Positions 4,336 through 15,030 of a stretch of DNA of 64,000 nucleotides are shown here, piece after piece. Within the stretch, counting starts at the first letter, position 1; each line of letters begins with the position of its first letter. The notes beneath the pieces were generated by a model that ran no database searches, was not told the origin of the DNA, and was given only the letters and a program-made list of their open reading frames with translations. The position numbers and the translations under genes were made by a program. Source of the DNA: Helicobacter pametensis ATCC 51478 (GTDB taxonomy: Bacteria; Campylobacterota; Campylobacteria; Campylobacterales; Helicobacteraceae); NCBI RefSeq assembly GCF_000518225.1, contig NZ_KI912401.1, positions 143,546 to 207,545 on the forward strand, written 5' to 3'.

Positions 4336-6288
4336 ATGGCACTTTTGTCACTTTGTGAAGCCTCCAAGGCTTTTGATCTCAAAATCATTCTCTCTTCAGT
4401 TTCATTTTCGATTCAAGAGGGAGAGAGAATCGCGATTGTGGGTAAGAATGGGTGTGGGAAATCCACTCTCTTAAAGATTTTATTGCAAGAGTGTGATTTG
4501 GATGAGGGGGAGAGAATCATCCAAAATAATCTTAAGCTTTCATATTTGCCTCAGATTCCAGAGTTTGATCCAGCATTGAGCGTTCAAGAGGCGATAGAGG
4601 CAAGCTTAGTCGAGCTCAAATCCACTCACAAACGACTCCATGAGGTCAATTTAGCTCTACAAAACACGCCCAATGATCAGAATCTACTCAAAGAATATGA
4701 AGAGCTGACACTAGTTTTGGATGGACTAAATGCGTGGGATTTGGATGCCAAAGTAGAGGAAGTGATTGATGCATTTTCTTTACATGAGTTTAAATATCGC
4801 AGTATTGCTTCCTTGAGTGGAGGAGAGCAAAAGCGCGTCGCACTCTCACAAATCCTATTTCAAAAATGTGATATTTTGCTTCTTGATGAGCCGACAAATC
4901 ATCTTGATGTGGAGATGGTGGAATTCCTTGAGCAAAAGCTCTTAGCGCTCAAAACTACACTTGTGCTCATCAGTCATGATCGCTACTTTATTGAGAATCT
5001 TGCAACGCGTGTGGTGGAAGTAGAGAATGGAAAGCTTGCTAGCTTTGATGGAGGCTATGCGAGTTATCTTGCACAAAAAGAAGAATTACTACGCGCTTTG
5101 AGTAGGGAGCATGAAGTGCTTCTTAAGCTTCTCAAAAATGAAGAAGAGTGGCTTAGAAGAGGAGTGAAAGCACGACTAAAGCGTAATGAAGGGCGCAAAA
5201 AAAGAGTGTTAGAGATGCGCCAAAAGGCCAAATCCAACCCATCGATCATCCACAAAATGAAGCTTGAGCTTCAAAGAGAGCAGAAAGCATTCAATCGCAC
5301 TGAAGGCAAAAACAATAAAAAAATGCTTTTTGAAGCCAAGGAGATCACGCAAAAAATGGGAGATAAAATCCTCTTTGAGCATTTGAGTTTTAGAATCTTG
5401 CAAAGAGATAAGATTGCGATTGTGGGGAAGAATGGAAGCGGGAAAAGCAGTCTTCTCAAAGTGCTTTTGGGTGTGGATCAGCCTATGAGGGGAAAACTTG
5501 AGCGAGGAGAGATTAGGATAGGGTATTTTGATCAACATCGAATGATGCTAGATGATGAGAAAAATATCTTAGAGACTTTTTGTCCTTTTGGTGGGGATAG
5601 AGTGGATGTGAGGGGGAAAAATATGCATGTATTTGGCTATCTCAAAAATTTTCTTTTTCCCAAGGAATTTCTCAATCAAAAGATTGCCAATCTAAGTGGA
5701 GGAGAGAAAAATCGCCTAGCCTTGGCATTGCTCTTTACAAAAGAATATGATTGTCTGATCTTGGATGAGCCGACCAATGATTTGGATATCGCAACGATTA
5801 ATATTTTGGAAGAGAATCTAGCTCTTTTTGATGGCTGCGTATTGATTGTGAGTCATGATCGCTATTTTGTAGATAAGGTGGCAGAGAGACTGTTTGTTTT
5901 TGAGGGGTCGGGGGTTGTGCATGAGTATTATGAAAGCTATAGTCAATATCTAGAAGACAAAAAAGAGCTAGCTCAGTATGAGAAACTTGAGCAAGAGATC
6001 GCTTTGGGGGAGACAGAAAAGAGTGAGAGAAAAGAAGAAAAGAAAAAGGAAGTCAAACTCAGCTATAAAGACCAAAGATTGCTAGATCTGTTGCCTAGTG
6101 AGCTTGAAGAGATGGAGAGTAAGATCAGAGAGCTTGAGTATGAGCTAAGTGATCCAAATCTTTATCAAAAAAAAGGGATTTCTGTGATTGCTGGAGAGCT
6201 AGAAGAACTAAGGGGGATCTATGAAGAAAAGATGATGATTTATTTTGAGCTACTGGAGAAAAGTGAAGCATTAAAGAGTGAGACATAA
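4336..6288 (+). CDS. ABC-F family ATPase (Uup-like)
   Basis: This is a soluble duplicated ABC ATPase of the ABC-F class, which acts on ribosomes rather than in transport; no membrane spans are present. Domain 1 has GKNGCGKST, LSGGEQKR and LLLDEPTNHLD; domain 2 has GKNGSGKSS, LSGGEKNR and LILDEPTNDLD. A charged linker of about 80 residues separates them, and a C-terminal coiled coil rich in E and K (about 545-645) is the mark of the Uup subgroup. It begins immediately after the plsC stop. A second ABC-F protein of the YbiT type lies at 58791. Confidence 0.9.
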   Translation: MALLSLCEASKAFDLKIILSSVSFSIQEGERIAIVGKNGCGKSTLLKILLQECDLDEGERIIQNNLKLSYLPQIPEFDPALSVQEAIEASLVELKSTHKRLHEVNLALQNTPNDQNLLKEYEELTLVLDGLNAWDLDAKVEEVIDAFSLHEFKYRSIASLSGGEQKRVALSQILFQKCDILLLDEPTNHLDVEMVEFLEQKLLALKTTLVLISHDRYFIENLATRVVEVENGKLASFDGGYASYLAQKEELLRALSREHEVLLKLLKNEEEWLRRGVKARLKRNEGRKKRVLEMRQKAKSNPSIIHKMKLELQREQKAFNRTEGKNNKKMLFEAKEITQKMGDKILFEHLSFRILQRDKIAIVGKNGSGKSSLLKVLLGVDQPMRGKLERGEIRIGYFDQHRMMLDDEKNILETFCPFGGDRVDVRGKNMHVFGYLKNFLFPKEFLNQKIANLSGGEKNRLALALLFTKEYDCLILDEPTNDLDIATINILEENLALFDGCVLIVSHDRYFVDKVAERLFVFEGSGVVHEYYESYSQYLEDKKELAQYEKLEQEIALGETEKSERKEEKKKEVKLSYKDQRLLDLLPSELEEMESKIRELEYELSDPNLYQKKGISVIAGELEELRGIYEEKMMIYFELLEKSEALKSET

Positions 6289-6289
6289 A

Positions 6290-6337
6290 ATGAGTTTAGA
6301 TAGAATCCGTGCATTAGAATTTGGCGGAGTGGAGTGA
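6290..6337 (+). other. 15-codon open frame before the ATPase gene
   Basis: An ATG one base after the ABC-F stop opens 15 codons (MSLDRIRALEFGGVE) and stops four bases before the ATPase ATG at 6342. Its last codons supply the purine-rich GGAGTGAGG ribosome site of that gene. It could be a coupled leader peptide, the scar of a gene interrupted when the cassette entered, or chance. There is no evidence that it is translated. Confidence 0.25.
6301..6306 (+). promoter_or_regulatory. Possible -10 element before ATPase/nuclease pair
   Basis: TAGAAT lies 36 bases before the ATPase start and resembles the Helicobacter sigma-80 -10 hexamer; a second TAGAAT is at 6315-6320. No good -35 is seen, which is usual in this genus. 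The assignment is weak. Confidence 0.3.
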
Positions 6338-6341
6338 GGAA

Positions 6342-7694
6342 ATGAAAGAAAAATTAGTGATTAAAAATTTTGGACCTATTGCTTCTGCTGAAATTGAAAT
6401 AAAAAAGATGATGGTTTTTATCGGAGATTCAGGAAGTGGAAAGAGTGTTGTGCTTAAACTTCTCTCACTCTTTCGCTGGATTTATAAAAAACTTTCTATT
6501 GATTCTGAATACAAGTTTGATGATTGTCGAGAAATTTTAAGGCAGTCTGGGTTGCTAGATTTTTGTGTGAGCGAAGAGTTTGGATTATTTCATTCAAATG
6601 TTTTTGAAAGTAAGGCAATTTATTGTGTCGGAGAATCTGTTGTTGAAATTAGTTGCAAAAATGGAGGATATAAACTTGATTGTTCTAAATATAAAAGTGA
6701 GGGAGAGGTAATCTATGAAAAAGTTTCCTTTATTGCCGATGATCGAATTATCCTCCCTTTGGTTTTTAATCAGCAAATGAGGGTTTCAAAGTTTCCTTAT
6801 CACCTAGAGAAGACATATGAAGATTTTTTTAAGGCTACGGATAAAAGTTTTACAAATGGTGCAAGGATAAATATAGAGACAATGGATATTTGGCTCTCTC
6901 AAAAAACGGAAGGGATTCGTCCAGTCTATTATCTTGAGAATAAAGATGGCTCAATTCGATTTCACAATGCTTCTTCTGGAATGAAATCAGCTTCAATTAT
7001 CGAAACAATTACTTCGTTTTATGCTCAAAACTATGATGAAGCAAAAAGGCAATTTTCTGACTTGGAATTTCATCGTAAAATAAAACAGGAAGAGATTACT
7101 ATTTTAGAAGATTTACCAGAAAGAATGAAAAAAATGGATGCCGTTCTTAAGGAGGACAAGAAAAACGAATTTAGTGCAAAAAAAATGAAACCTATTTTGA
7201 ACGATATGAAAGATACGCTTGATAAGCTTAAAATTTTTTTAAAAGTTAATGTGGAGATGCAAAGAATAGAGAATTTAGAATATCGCCTAAGTTTTTTTAT
7301 TGAAGAGCCAGAGCTGAGTTTATTTCCAACAGCTCAGAAGAGATTGGTGGATTATCTTGTAGCACTCACTTTCAAGAAAGATAAAAACATCAGAATGGCT
7401 TTTTCAACGCATAGTCCTTATATCCTTACTTCACTCAATTGTCTTCTTAAGGCTTACAAACTTGCAGAAGAATTTCCATCACTAAGAGAAAAAATTAAGA
7501 AGATTGTTGATGAAAAATATTGGCTCAATCCAAAAGAGTTTGATGCTTTTATGGTGGAAAATGGAGAGGTGTATTCAATTTGCAAAGAAGAGAATGAGGG
7601 GTTAATATTGGCAGAAAAAATTGATGGAGTATCTGATGAGATTAGAGATGTTTTTGATGAACTTATTGATTTGGAGTTGGAGATGAAAGATTGA
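6342..7694 (+). CDS. OLD/AAA_15-like ATPase, first gene of a two-gene cassette
   Basis: This is a 450-aa ABC-type ATPase of the SMC/OLD-like class. Motifs are Walker A GDSGSGKS (28-35), a signature-like ASSGMKS (210-216), Walker B IEEPELSLF (320-328) and the H-loop STHSPYIL (355-362). A charged, probably coiled-coil stretch lies at about 225-300. Unlike OLD nucleases it has no C-terminal TOPRIM domain; the likely nuclease is the next gene, whose TTG start overlaps this stop. I chose ATG 6342 because GGAGTGAGG is well placed. Base composition is AT-richer than the flanking ABC-F and ilvE genes, which suggests acquisition. ATPases of this kind act as sensors in defence systems such as PARIS, Septu and AbiL; this pair matches none that I recognise. 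Confidence 0.85.
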   Translation: MKEKLVIKNFGPIASAEIEIKKMMVFIGDSGSGKSVVLKLLSLFRWIYKKLSIDSEYKFDDCREILRQSGLLDFCVSEEFGLFHSNVFESKAIYCVGESVVEISCKNGGYKLDCSKYKSEGEVIYEKVSFIADDRIILPLVFNQQMRVSKFPYHLEKTYEDFFKATDKSFTNGARINIETMDIWLSQKTEGIRPVYYLENKDGSIRFHNASSGMKSASIIETITSFYAQNYDEAKRQFSDLEFHRKIKQEEITILEDLPERMKKMDAVLKEDKKNEFSAKKMKPILNDMKDTLDKLKIFLKVNVEMQRIENLEYRLSFFIEEPELSLFPTAQKRLVDYLVALTFKKDKNIRMAFSTHSPYILTSLNCLLKAYKLAEEFPSLREKIKKIVDEKYWLNPKEFDAFMVENGEVYSICKEENEGLILAEKIDGVSDEIRDVFDELIDLELEMKD

Positions 7695-8215
7695 AGTGCA
7701 ATGTTGTAAAACTTGAATGTCCTTTTAAGGAAAAAAGTATTGAATTTGGTTGCAAAGAGGATAGTCTTTGTTGTGAGCTTGGAGGACAATTAATAGTTTG
7801 CGAAGAAAAGAAAAAGAAATTTCAATTAAGAATAGATAACAATGAATCTTTTTATAAAGCCAAACTTGATGACTGTATAGAAAAGAAAAAAAATGATGCA
7901 ATAAGATGTGATTATATCATTTTTAATCAAGATAGAAGTAGGGCGATTTTTCTTGAATTAAAAGGGAACGATCTAAAAAAAGCTGTAGATCAAATTGAGG
8001 CAAGTCTTAAGCGATATCCTCAACTAGGAACGCAGGAGAAGATTCTATGTATTATTTCATCACGAGGAATACCGGTTAAGACTGATGAACAAAAACCTGA
8101 ACATAGAGAAGCTTTAAAAACATGGAAGAAATTGACAGAGGAGAAACTGAGACATATAAGTAGTTCAAAACTTTGTCTTCAATATGATGGAAACACTTTT
8201 AAAAAAGGAGGCTGA
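7691..8215 (+). CDS. PD-(D/E)XK-like nuclease candidate, partner of the ATPase
   Basis: This is a 174-aa protein not recognised by name. Residues 74-91 fit a restriction-endonuclease-fold active site: D74 after RC, then a strand of hydrophobic residues, then E89-L-K91 in IFLELKG, followed by a helix with Q101 (AVDQIEASLKRY). The first 40 residues hold six cysteines (3, 10, 21, 27, 28, 37), which could bind zinc or an iron-sulphur cluster. The start is TTG in a TTGA overlap with the ATPase stop, with GGAG about 10 bases upstream, so translation is coupled. Its last codons contain the ilvE ribosome site. A nuclease function is inferred from the motif only. Confidence 0.7.
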   Translation: MKCNVVKLECPFKEKSIEFGCKEDSLCCELGGQLIVCEEKKKKFQLRIDNNESFYKAKLDDCIEKKKNDAIRCDYIIFNQDRSRAIFLELKGNDLKKAVDQIEASLKRYPQLGTQEKILCIISSRGIPVKTDEQKPEHREALKTWKKLTEEKLRHISSSKLCLQYDGNTFKKGG

Positions 8216-8216
8216 T

Positions 8217-9152
8217 TTGACCCAGTCACAATGGATTTGGAAGAATGGTGAGTTTATTCCTTGGAAGGAAGCGACTACCCATCTTTTGAGTCATAGCTTG
8301 CATTATGGAAATGCTGTATTTGAGGGGGTGAGAGCCTATCCGACAGATAAGGGATTGGCTATTTTTCGTCTTCAAGAGCATACTCAAAGACTGCTAGATT
8401 CTGCCAAGATTGTCGCCCTTGATTGCTCTTTTGGATTTGATGAGCTTTGTAAGGCTCAAATTGAACTTGTGAGGAAAAATACTTTTAGGGGGGATAAAAG
8501 TGTTTATATCCGTCCTTTGATTTATTTGGGATATGGAGATTTGAGGGTGGCACATTACCACTCTCCTATTGAGGTGATGATGGCATGTTGGGAATGGGAT
8601 GGATATTTGGGTGAAGATGCACAAAGTCGTGGCATCAGAGTGAAAACTAGCTCTTTTAGACGCCCATCTAATCAATCAGGATTTCTAAAAGCCAAGGTCT
8701 CAGGCAATTATCTCAACTCTCAGCTAGCGCGTTATGAGGCATATAAATGCGGGTTTGATGAGTGTATTTTGCTTGATGATTCTGGCTTTGTGACTGAAGC
8801 AAGCAGTGAGTGTTTGTTCGTAGTGAAAAAAGATGAGTTTATCACACCTCCATGGGAGAATACGCTTTGCTCAATCACACAAGAGAGCGTGATGCAAATC
8901 ATTCAAAAAGAAGGATATAAACTCACTCAAAGAGCAATTACACGCGATGAGATTTATACAGCTGATGAATGTTTTTTGGTCGGAACTGCTGCTGAGATTA
9001 CGCCAGTTGTTGAGCTAGATTTCCGCAAGATTGGGGATGATTTTCCCAAGACACGATGGATTCAGGAGAGATTTAGCCAAGTTGCAGGTGGAGAAGATCC
9101 TGATTTTTTACATTTTTTAACTTATATTCAAGGAGAAACTGATGCCAATTGA
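8217..9152 (+). CDS. ilvE: Branched-chain amino acid aminotransferase
   Basis: This is a fold-type IV PLP transaminase that interconverts valine, leucine and isoleucine with their 2-oxo acids. Marks are HSLHYGNAVFEGVRAY near the N-terminus, the PLP lysine in FLKAKVSGNYLNS and the EASSECLF region. The start is TTG 8217, with a near-perfect AAGGAGG five bases upstream; the ATGs at 8184 and 8187 lie within the preceding gene and have no such site. The product is 311 aa, close to the family norm. It overlaps the following SPFH gene by 11 bases. Confidence 0.93.
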   Translation: MTQSQWIWKNGEFIPWKEATTHLLSHSLHYGNAVFEGVRAYPTDKGLAIFRLQEHTQRLLDSAKIVALDCSFGFDELCKAQIELVRKNTFRGDKSVYIRPLIYLGYGDLRVAHYHSPIEVMMACWEWDGYLGEDAQSRGIRVKTSSFRRPSNQSGFLKAKVSGNYLNSQLARYEAYKCGFDECILLDDSGFVTEASSECLFVVKKDEFITPPWENTLCSITQESVMQIIQKEGYKLTQRAITRDEIYTADECFLVGTAAEITPVVELDFRKIGDDFPKTRWIQERFSQVAGGEDPDFLHFLTYIQGETDAN

Positions 9153-11540: not shown

Positions 11541-13268
11541 ATGAAACAAATCAAAATCACAGAAAATTCACTCAGGGATGGAATCCAGTCTCTTTTGGCG
11601 ACTCGCGTGATGACACAGGACTTGCTTGAGGCTGCCAAAATCTTTGAAGACATCGGATTTTATAGCGTAGAAGTTTGGGGTGGAGCGACTTATGATGCGT
11701 GTTTGAGGTATCTCAATGAAGATCCATTTGAACGACTTAGTGCCTTTAAGGCAATTTTCAAAACAACTCCGCTGCAAATGTTGCTTAGGGGGCAGAATCT
11801 TGTCGGTTATCGCCATTATGGCAATGATGTAGTGAGGGAATTTATCCGCTTAAGTAGTGAATCGGGGATTGATATTTTTAGAGTTTTTGATGCGCTCAAT
11901 GATGCTTCCAATCTCAAAGTCAGCATTGAGGCCATTTGCAATCAGGGCAAACATGCTCAGGGTGCGATTTGTTATACCACTTCACCTGTGCATCACCGAA
12001 AGTTTTTTGTCTCTTATGCCAAAGAGCTTTTGGCGATGGGGTGTCAGAGTTTGGCGATCAAGGATATGGCTGGATTGCTTAAGCCTTTTGAGGGCTATGA
12101 GTTGATTAAGGCAATCAAAGAAGAGACGGGGGCTAGTATTGCACTTCATGTGCATAGCACGACAGGATTTGCCTTTGGAACTCATCTCAAAGCACTGGAG
12201 GCTGGAGTAGATATCTTGGATTTAAGCAATAGTGCTCTAAGTGGAGGTACATCTCATCCAAGCACTCAGGCGATGGTTGCGACCTTGCAAGAGACACCAT
12301 GGGAGACTGGATTAGAGATTGAAAAAATGGAGCAGGCTTCTAAGATTCTCAAAAAAGTGCGTCAAAAATATGCGATGTATGAATCAAGTTTTAATCAAAT
12401 TGATACAGAGATCTTGAGCACTCAAATCCCAGGAGGAATGATCTCCAATCTTGCCACTCAGCTTAAAGAACAAAATGCACTTGATAGGATGCCAGAGGTT
12501 GCACAAGAGATTATTGAGGTGAGGAAAGATTTTGGATACATTCCATTGGTCACTCCCACTAGTCAGATCGTGGGGACTCAGGCTGTGCTAAATGTCTTGC
12601 AGAATGAGCGCTACAAAACACTCACAACAGAATCAAAAAATCTTATCTTAGGACTCTATGGCAAAACACCAGCCCCCATCTCTCCATCTCTCAAAGAGCG
12701 AGTAGGAGAAGCAGAGAAGAATCTAGAAGATGAAATGCCAAGGGCGATCCAAGAGAGCAGAGGATTTGCAACAAAGCCAAGTGATGTGATCTCTTATGCA
12801 TTATTTGGAGAGATGGCGCGTCAATACTTGGAGCAAAAAGATAAGCAACAGCCCCAAGATCTTTTGCATCAAGATTCTCAAAACTTGGGCAGATATTTTG
12901 AACTTCAAAGTGGAGGAGAGCGCTATGAGGTGGAGATCTTGGATGTGCAATCTTGCAAGGTCCATCTAAAAATCAATGGAGAAGAGAGAGAGGTTGGAAT
13001 CTCTGCTATGGATAGTGCATCAGAGATGGATGAGGAGATCTTTCAGGAAAACGCGATCTTTGCTCCAATGAGTGGAGTATGCACCAAGATTTTTGTCCAA
13101 GCCAATCAAAGGGTGAAGTGTGGAGAAGTGCTTGGTATGATTGAGGCGATGAAGATGGAAAATGAGATTCTTGCACCCAAGGATGGAGAGATTCAAGAGA
13201 TTTGTATCGCTCAAGGTGAGAGTGTGAATCCAAAGAAGATTTTATTTTTATTAAAGGAAGAAGAATGA
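11541..13268 (+). CDS. pycB: Pyruvate/oxaloacetate carboxylase subunit B (biotin carrier)
   Basis: This is a 575-aa carboxyltransferase subunit that moves CO2 between biotin and pyruvate/oxaloacetate. The N-terminal HMGL-like domain opens with the family ENSLRDGIQS motif and contains the metal/substrate segments VEVWGGATYD and LHVHSTTG. A PYC/OADA domain follows, then a C-terminal biotinyl domain with EAMKMEN, the biotinylated lysine being about residue 538. The A subunit (biotin carboxylase) is not in this window. In Campylobacter the two-subunit enzyme is anaplerotic; H. pylori lacks it, as far as I recall. A biotin synthase gene is at 25558. Confidence 0.93.
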   Translation: MKQIKITENSLRDGIQSLLATRVMTQDLLEAAKIFEDIGFYSVEVWGGATYDACLRYLNEDPFERLSAFKAIFKTTPLQMLLRGQNLVGYRHYGNDVVREFIRLSSESGIDIFRVFDALNDASNLKVSIEAICNQGKHAQGAICYTTSPVHHRKFFVSYAKELLAMGCQSLAIKDMAGLLKPFEGYELIKAIKEETGASIALHVHSTTGFAFGTHLKALEAGVDILDLSNSALSGGTSHPSTQAMVATLQETPWETGLEIEKMEQASKILKKVRQKYAMYESSFNQIDTEILSTQIPGGMISNLATQLKEQNALDRMPEVAQEIIEVRKDFGYIPLVTPTSQIVGTQAVLNVLQNERYKTLTTESKNLILGLYGKTPAPISPSLKERVGEAEKNLEDEMPRAIQESRGFATKPSDVISYALFGEMARQYLEQKDKQQPQDLLHQDSQNLGRYFELQSGGERYEVEILDVQSCKVHLKINGEEREVGISAMDSASEMDEEIFQENAIFAPMSGVCTKIFVQANQRVKCGEVLGMIEAMKMENEILAPKDGEIQEICIAQGESVNPKKILFLLKEEE

Positions 13269-14299
13269 AATTGAGTTTGATTTTTGGGGGGAAAAGTTAT
13301 GAGCATGAGATCAGCATTGTCAGTGCAATTTCGCTTTCAAAAATTCTAGAGATCACTCATTTTATTTTTCTAGATTATGAACATCAGTTTTTTCTCATCC
13401 CCAAAGAAAAGATGAAGTCAAATACCTTTAGTTCTGGAGCATATAAGCAGTGCAAGAAGCTTATGCCAACTTATGGGGATTTTGTGAGTGCTGGATTTTT
13501 GGGGGATAAAAAACTTGGAGTGGAGAGGGTTTTGAGTGTGGTGCATGGAGGTGATGGAGAAGATGGGGTGCTCTCTTCGCTCTTGGAATTTTATCGCATC
13601 CCTTTTATCGCTCCAAGAAAAGAAGCTTGTATCTTGAGCTATGACAAGGAGCTCACTAAGCTCTATGCTCAATCTAGGGGAGTTAAAGTGCTTGGATATG
13701 AGGTATTTTCTGTGCAGAATCCCCCGATATCACTCAAGCACTATCCTGCGATCATCAAGCCATCGCGTTTGGGAAGCTCTATTGGTGTCAATGTGGTGAG
13801 GGATGAAGCAGGTCTTGCTTATGGACTAGATTGTGCATTTGAGTATGATGATCGCATTATTGTTGAGCCTTTTGTGGAGGGAGTTAGAGAGTATAATCTA
13901 GCAGGGTATAGAGATCATGAGGGTAAGATCGTATTTTCAATCGTGGAAGAGCCAAAGAAGGCAGATTTTTTAAATTTTGAAAATAAATATTTGGATTTTT
14001 CACGCACAGAGCAAGTATTGAGGGCTGAAATCTCTGAAGCTCTTGAGCAAAGTTTGAGAGAGAATTTCATCAAGCTTTATGAAAATTGCTTTGAGGGGGC
14101 AATCATTCGCTGTGATTTTTTTGTGATCGATGGAGAGGTATACCTCAATGAGATCAATCCAATCCCTGGTTCTATGGCTAATTATCTCTTTGAAGATTTT
14201 TCATCTGTTGTTGCTGGGATCTCTCTTCCATTGATGCGTGAGATTAGTGGAAATTATGCATATATCCACAAGATTCAAAGAGCCAAAGGGAAGGCTTAA
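13265..14299 (+). CDS. ddl: D-alanine--D-alanine ligase
   Basis: This ATP-grasp enzyme makes the D-Ala-D-Ala dipeptide for peptidoglycan. Visible marks are an N-terminal FGGKSYEHEISIVSA, HGGDGEDGVLSSLLE, the ATP-binding KPSRLGSSIGV segment and the metal/ATP site ENCFEGAIIRCDFF ... YLNEINPIPGSM. The length (344 aa) is usual for Helicobacter. It overlaps pycB by four bases (ATGA) and is followed by hydrolase, murF and HIT genes, the H. pylori HP0738-HP0741 order; murF uses the product of this enzyme. Confidence 0.96.
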   Translation: MKLSLIFGGKSYEHEISIVSAISLSKILEITHFIFLDYEHQFFLIPKEKMKSNTFSSGAYKQCKKLMPTYGDFVSAGFLGDKKLGVERVLSVVHGGDGEDGVLSSLLEFYRIPFIAPRKEACILSYDKELTKLYAQSRGVKVLGYEVFSVQNPPISLKHYPAIIKPSRLGSSIGVNVVRDEAGLAYGLDCAFEYDDRIIVEPFVEGVREYNLAGYRDHEGKIVFSIVEEPKKADFLNFENKYLDFSRTEQVLRAEISEALEQSLRENFIKLYENCFEGAIIRCDFFVIDGEVYLNEINPIPGSMANYLFEDFSSVVAGISLPLMREISGNYAYIHKIQRAKGKA

Positions 14300-14301
14300 A
14301 G

Positions 14302-15030
14302 TTGGCAAAGAAATTTTTGGAATTTGAGGGGAATCGATTTGAGATTGCCTATGAGATGATCGATCATCAGATGGATCGATGGATTGTCTTTTTGCATGGT
14401 TGGGGAAGTAATAAGGGATTGATGAAACAGGCTTTTGGCCATTGTTTTGAAGGATTTAATCATCTCTATATTGATTTGCCAGGTTTTGGGCAGAGTCAAA
14501 ACCACATTGCGCTAAAGACCACTCAATATGCACAGATTCTAAAAATCTTTTTTGAATCTTTGCAGATTGATCCTTTGGAGAATATGATTGTTGGGCATAG
14601 CTTTGGAGGGAAAGTTGCTGCGCTTTTGGCTCCTAAAGAATTAGTTTTGCTCAGCTCTGCTGGGATCATTGAGCCAAAACCTCTCAAAATCAAAGCCAAA
14701 ATTTATCTTGCAAAATTTGTCAAAAAGATTGGGTTTTCTTATAAGGGATTGAGATCAAAAGATGCCAATGGCTTAAATGAGGGTATGTATCAGACATTTA
14801 AAAATGTGGTTGATGAAGATTTTTCATCAATCTTTGCTTCTTTGCCATCAAAGACTTATATCTTTTGGGGTACACAAGATCGTGCGACTTCTCTTGTAAG
14901 TGGAGAAAAGATCGCTTCTTTGATACATCTAAGTCATTTTCTTGCTTTTGAGGGAGATCATTATTTCTTTTTGAAATATGCAAAAGAGATAGATGATCAG
15001 ATTCAGAGATGGAGGAAGAGCGTTGAGTAG
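14302..15030 (+). CDS. Alpha/beta hydrolase (HP0739-like)
   Basis: This is a 242-aa alpha/beta-hydrolase. The nucleophile elbow is GHSFGG with S100, the oxyanion region is FLHGWGSNKG, and the histidine of the triad is probably the one in GDHYFFLKY near the C-terminus. The start is TTG 14302, with AGGGAAGG upstream. The H. pylori homologue carries the name 2-hydroxy-6-oxohepta-2,4-dienoate hydrolase by similarity only; the substrate is unknown. Its fixed place between ddl and murF suggests a cell-wall related role, which is inference. Confidence 0.85.
   Translation: MAKKFLEFEGNRFEIAYEMIDHQMDRWIVFLHGWGSNKGLMKQAFGHCFEGFNHLYIDLPGFGQSQNHIALKTTQYAQILKIFFESLQIDPLENMIVGHSFGGKVAALLAPKELVLLSSAGIIEPKPLKIKAKIYLAKFVKKIGFSYKGLRSKDANGLNEGMYQTFKNVVDEDFSSIFASLPSKTYIFWGTQDRATSLVSGEKIASLIHLSHFLAFEGDHYFFLKYAKEIDDQIQRWRKSVE

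Follow-up and report, generated by a model that had tools for sequence, protein, structure and literature searches.

The window analysed here is a stretch of 64,000 nucleotides from Helicobacter pametensis ATCC 51478, the genome of which comprises 1.435 Mb in 11 contigs. Two genes, one for an ATPase and one for a small partner protein, lie in this window between a gene of the ABC-F family and ilvE, as follows:

4336..6288, plus strand: Uup-like ABC-F gene, upstream flank
6278..6306, plus strand: weak sigma-70-like promoter match GTGAGA-17-TAGAAT (9/12), between the ABC-F stop and the cassette
6342..7694, plus strand: ATPase subunit (WonA-like OLD-ABC, PDC-M29A family), 450 aa, ATG at 6342, TGA at 7694
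7691..8215, plus strand: effector subunit (predicted WonB-like PD-(D/E)XK nuclease), 174 aa, TTG at 7691, TGA at 8215
8217..9152, plus strand: ilvE, host operon gene, starting 1 nt past the effector stop

The ATPase and effector genes are joined via a TTGA overlap, and both open reading frames, the overlap and the length of the second product agree with the original prediction for this DNA. A longer version of the ATPase could start from a TTG at 6321, and the TTG start of the effector is kept in the same-genus orthologue. The GC content of the cassette is 0.32 vs 0.40 for the ABC-F gene and 0.41 for ilvE, which bears out the earlier description of the pair as AT-richer than both of its neighbors; this AT-richness is matched by only 3% of the window segments of the same length. 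No terminator-like site was found between the effector gene and ilvE. Promoter matches near the cassette show no excess over shuffled sequences, and the match at 6278..6306 is no evidence by itself. The stretch at positions 6290-6337 of the window (ATGAGTTTAGATAGAATCC...) resembles the sequence immediately 5' of ilvE in another genome of the genus (G060, L061), a resemblance that would fit an insertion of the cassette between ilvE and its promoter.

The ATPase and its small partner

The ATPase carries the motifs GDSGSGKS (K34), IEEPELSLF (E321/E322) and STHSPYIL (H357) and is recognized by the Pfam families AAA_15 (1.9e-15) and AAA_21 (3.7e-11), with no Pfam match to TOPRIM, as had been read from the motifs at the outset. 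Its characteristic residues are the Walker A K34, R135, the signature S211-S212-G213, the catalytic Walker B E322, and the H-loop H357. Among 20-24 ATPase homologues, K34, R135, S211-S212, E322 and H357 are invariant or nearly so; the alignment rows lacking K34 appear truncated or wrongly started, and one homologue (L067) has Ala at the position of E322. The protein also has a helical insert at residues ~212-310 and a C-terminal extension at residues 363-450. Comparison of the AlphaFold model (pLDDT 85.7, pTM 0.83) with solved structures by Foldseek identified Septu and retron PtuA as the closest (E 5e-10), and a profile search against solved structures placed an OLD nuclease, PtuA and AriA closest. 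In the PADLOC library the best match is PDC-M29A (9.3e-35), followed by AriA (7.2e-18) and PD-T4-4_A (7.6e-14), and PDC-M29A is matched by all nine family members of the ATPase that were scanned.

The partner protein is not recognized by any curated family: TOPRIM, HNH and DUF4435 effector domains have no match in Pfam or PADLOC, and searches against solved-structure sequences, either with the single sequence or with a profile, gave nothing meaningful. Among the PADLOC models it matches PDC-M47B (3.2e-5) and PDC-M56B weakly and the PDC-M29B models not at all at E<=1; PDC-M29B is matched by five of the 11 effector homologues (best 5e-10). The D74...E89-L-K91 arrangement noted in the original prediction is confirmed. 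All 29 effector sequences, down to 13% identity, share D74, E89, K91 and Q101, and 28 of them have D60. In the AlphaFold model (pLDDT 80, pTM 0.80), D74 precedes a strand at 75-79, a strand at 84-90 ends at E89/K91, and a helix at 95-108 bears Q101; this is the order of a PD-(D/E)XK core in which beta strands replace the usual first helix. Foldseek with this model yielded no significant match (best E 0.05), and the list, in which PD-(D/E)XK enzymes are frequent, is headed, without significance, by Can2, MunI, Hef/XPF and a Holliday resolvase, with HincII and PfoI also appearing. The first of these, Can2, is a PD-(D/E)XK enzyme that cuts RNA as well as DNA. We read the effector as a divergent PD-(D/E)XK fold, for which the sequence signature is a stronger argument than the model. 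The predicted fold is nuclease-like, though its Foldseek matches are non-significant, and together with the conserved catalytic signature it agrees with the expectation of a PD-(D/E)XK-like nuclease different from the effectors of the better known ATPase systems.

Distribution, insertion sites and natural chimeras

Homologues of the effector were found by sequence at 6.5e-11 and weaker, the named relatives being mostly Campylobacterota. They occupy 34 places, two of which start at a contig end and were left out of the linkage count; in all 32 assessable places an ATPase homologue lies directly upstream. The distance matrices of ATPase and effector correlate (Mantel r 0.71, 0/10000 permutations, 19 pairs). 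The pair is rare and its occurrence patchy: within the order 11 of 299 genomes carry it, and in the phylum sample 14 of 397. In viral contigs and plasmids the effector of the window was not found, and relatives from phages or plasmids are limited to distant fragments and one Bacteroides plasmid. One genome (G118) carries three divergent effector homologues (C27, C54, C19), of which the C19 copy begins at a contig end, and at L065:4681-5882 the ATPase gene seems to be split into two ORFs in the assembly.

Both filled and empty versions of several sites are available. In the same genus, G326 carries orthologues of both genes, likewise between ABC-F and ilvE (63% identity for the ATPase and 64% for the effector by tblastn; flanks 62-83% identical to those in the window), and in G073 the site is empty, with ABC-F adjoining ilvE. 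G049 has a pair inserted between apt and trpB, with the ATPase start replacing the TAATG stop/start overlap of the empty apt-trpB sites, and G118 has one between cdsA and dxr; the genes of each of these two couples are adjacent in most relatives examined. Other pairs are found next to dxr in a second genome (L081), before hypF in three (L083, L084, L086), after obg (G011), and after ddl (G487). Insertions in core operons keep a stop/start overlap or near-contact (TAATG etc.) at L069:5158-6805, L077:987-2575, L079:6918-8594, L083:2567 and L084:6417. The genes that flank the G487 pair (L071) correspond to the ddl-hydrolase neighbors at 13265-15030 of the window, which are 3 nt apart; the G487 flanks also include an additional MoeA-like gene and an assembly gap.

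Some relatives adjoin known defense genes or mobile elements. At L064:4513-6757 (G490) a pair overlaps, via TAATG, the specificity gene of a type I restriction-modification (R-M) system, with a methyltransferase gene downstream (HsdS/HsdM), HsdR lies near L091, and AbiLi lies near L065. In Sulfurovum G284 (L076/L089; L076:5466-10290) a pair occupies the first cassette position in a chromosomal integron; four attC-like repeats and further cassettes with toxin-antitoxin-like genes come after it, and the integron integrase is on the opposite strand (TIGR02249, 415.7 bits vs a cut-off of 265). The unit thus moves, and in many cases it comes to lie in the same direction as core genes. In 12/25 pairs vs 5/29 AbiEii controls, a co-directional ORF has its start at -4 to +1 nt relative to the stop of the effector gene (Fisher one-sided p 0.016), AbiEii serving as the control and Shedu being too rare for this use; with repeated sites collapsed p is 0.14, and we do not retain operon-embedding as a general statistical claim. 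The constant presence of the ATPase, the patchy occurrence in varied sites and the R-M or Abi genes beside some relatives uphold the earlier assignment of the pair to the defense-type units.

One group of homologues has a mosaic ATPase. Up to the H-loop THSPYIL, the ATPases of L082-L086 are 44-67% identical to the L068-L070 subfamily and 25-38% to L004/L008; past this motif they are 53-67% identical to the L004/L008 subfamily vs 28-39% to L068-L070. The nucleases of L083 and L084 side with L004/L008 (52-53% vs 21-26%). This pattern fits a recombination near the H-loop in which the C-terminus and the nuclease were kept together, and it is suggestive of a C-terminal extension that docks the nuclease, only suggestive because the chimeras form one clade. 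A family-wide co-evolution of the ATPase C-terminus with the effector was rejected: the excess correlation (0.83 vs 0.62) vanishes without L083/L084 and hence belongs to the chimera clade alone.

Proposed function and relation to known systems

The closest described counterpart is WonAB from the WASA-1 prophage of V. cholerae (Nat Microbiol 2025), which combines an OLD-ABC ATPase with a variant PD-(D/E)xK nuclease (PMC12137116; review PMC12409358). Both WonAB proteins are needed, and mutants in the ATPase motifs or the nuclease lysine lose protection; activation leads to growth arrest via translation inhibition, with genomic DNA not degraded and phage DNA replication proceeding (PMC12137116).

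We consider it likely that the pair in the window is a two-subunit, WonAB-like anti-phage system, with an ATPase sensor and a nuclease effector, carried as a promoterless cassette in a housekeeping operon. The ATPase would form an ABC-type dimer and sense some sign of phage infection. Its C-terminal extension would carry the small PD-(D/E)XK nuclease, for which the natural chimeras provide indirect support; the chimeras are also in line with the prediction that WonB docks on the C-terminal extensions of WonA (PMC12137116). Once activated, the nuclease may cut cellular nucleic acid through D74/E89/K91, and growth would be arrested before virions are made; by analogy with WonB only, an RNA of translation is a more likely target than genomic DNA. 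The pair would travel as a cassette without a promoter of its own and insert between housekeeping genes that run in one direction, which in the window are ABC-F and ilvE. The insertion itself is evident from the filled and empty sites; the pair would be expressed with the host operon, probably co-transcribed with ilvE.

A target in phage or host DNA, attacked directly by the nuclease of the same type of pair in the manner of Septu or Gabija, is rather unlikely in our view. PD-(D/E)XK enzymes are mostly DNA cutters, the weak fold matches of the effector include MunI, HincII, PfoI, Hef/XPF and Hjc, and the ATPase is structurally most similar to the Septu PtuA; however, the top fold match, Can2, cuts RNA too, and WonB halts translation in cells whose genomic DNA is left intact and whose phage DNA replicates (PMC12137116). 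A small nuclease with a regulator, encoded by overlapping genes, would also suit a selfish addiction module of the toxin-antitoxin type, with an anti-phage role absent or incidental, as would its stable maintenance in operons and the integron array in which one relative adjoins toxin-antitoxin-like genes. We regard such a module as improbable, given the relatives beside R-M/Abi genes, the patchy presence of the pair, and the observation that WonB without WonA is not toxic, from which a simple toxin-antitoxin model was argued against for WonAB (PMC12137116).

Since two species have the pair at the same site, with a divergence about that of the flanks, a stably inherited cellular role is also compatible with the data, and an archaeal OLD-family ATPase reportedly acts in the cell cycle (PMC12796447). 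Even so, a domesticated function of the OLD ATPase, be it in DNA repair, in stress or in the control of the ilvE operon, seems very improbable for a low-GC pair that is absent from most congeners and relatives and is inserted at unrelated sites across genomes. Returning to the WonAB-like defense system, we offer one generalization as a tentative possibility: PDC-M29/WonAB-like pairs may be modular promoterless defense cassettes that spread by inserting precisely where one gene of a core operon stops and the next begins (apt-trpB, cdsA-dxr, hydrogenase/hypF, ABC-F-ilvE), borrow the expression of essential genes, and diversify by swaps of the ATPase sensing half, with the C-terminal extension and the nuclease forming the effector module.

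The present analysis carries a recently described class of abortive-infection systems, in which an ATPase is combined with a nuclease, into the Campylobacterota, providing about 30 divergent pairs as well as natural empty sites. The natural chimeras make it testable how such ATPases hold and trigger their nuclease. Defense-type genes hidden in housekeeping operons would be missed by methods based on defense islands.

The ATPase fold of the window pair is related to those of PARIS (AriA/AriB), Septu (PtuA/PtuB), Gabija and OLD, whereas the effectors of these systems (TOPRIM/DUF4435, HNH, and TOPRIM fused to the ATPase) have no counterpart in the pair. We rejected PARIS for want of a match to the TOPRIM/DUF4435 effector AriB, Septu for want of one to the HNH effector PtuB, and OLD/Gabija GajA since there is no fused C-terminal TOPRIM and the 450-aa ATPase ends in a short C-terminal extension. 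PD-T4-4 and PDC-M47 share the combination of an OLD-ABC ATPase with a PD-(D/E)xK nuclease, and the effector weakly matches PDC-M47B; PD-T4-4 was nevertheless rejected, the PD-T4-4_A score of the ATPase being well below that for PDC-M29A and PD-T4-4_B having no match. A much closer PD-T4-4 relative is a second divergent ATPase and PD-(D/E)XK-like pair of the same genome (G000:C5:107195-109168, or L073:3196-5168; ATPase matching PD-T4-4_A at 4e-122), just upstream of which lies a gene for an OLD/AriA-like ATPase (L073:911-2851).

The statement in the original prediction that the pair matches no defense system has to be withdrawn: a system already cataloged as a PADLOC candidate, PDC-M29 (PDC-M29A with PDC-M29B), scores best in the library both for the ATPase and for effectors from several relatives, although the effector in the window itself falls below the PDC-M29B models, and WonAB has the same architecture. 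Like WonAB, the pair combines an OLD-type ABC ATPase that lacks TOPRIM with a small PD-(D/E)xK protein encoded downstream, and the residues essential in WonAB recur in it (in the ATPase the Walker A K34, an R, the Walker B E and the H-loop H; in the nuclease the ExK lysine). In one relative (L091), K33/R172/E295/H328 and effector K71 lie close to the positions K34/R182/E300/H333 of WonA and K71 of WonB (PMC12137116), a comparison of spacing only. The window pair differs from WonAB in several ways: the N-terminal insert of the ATPase is shorter (R135), a long helical insert precedes Walker B (E322), the nuclease has an N-terminal extension of ~20 residues, and the location is a housekeeping operon in a Campylobacterota genome instead of a prophage. 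WonAB was placed by its authors in the 'OLD-ABC ATPase + Novel REase' class of an ABC-ATPase survey, with a similarity to PD-T4-4 noted (PMC12137116). The window pair fits the architectural definition of WonAB, the likeness being one of architecture and residue spacing; there is a good probability that it works like WonAB, and it is very probably a divergent representative of the recently described ATPase-nuclease class of WonAB and the candidate PDC-M29.
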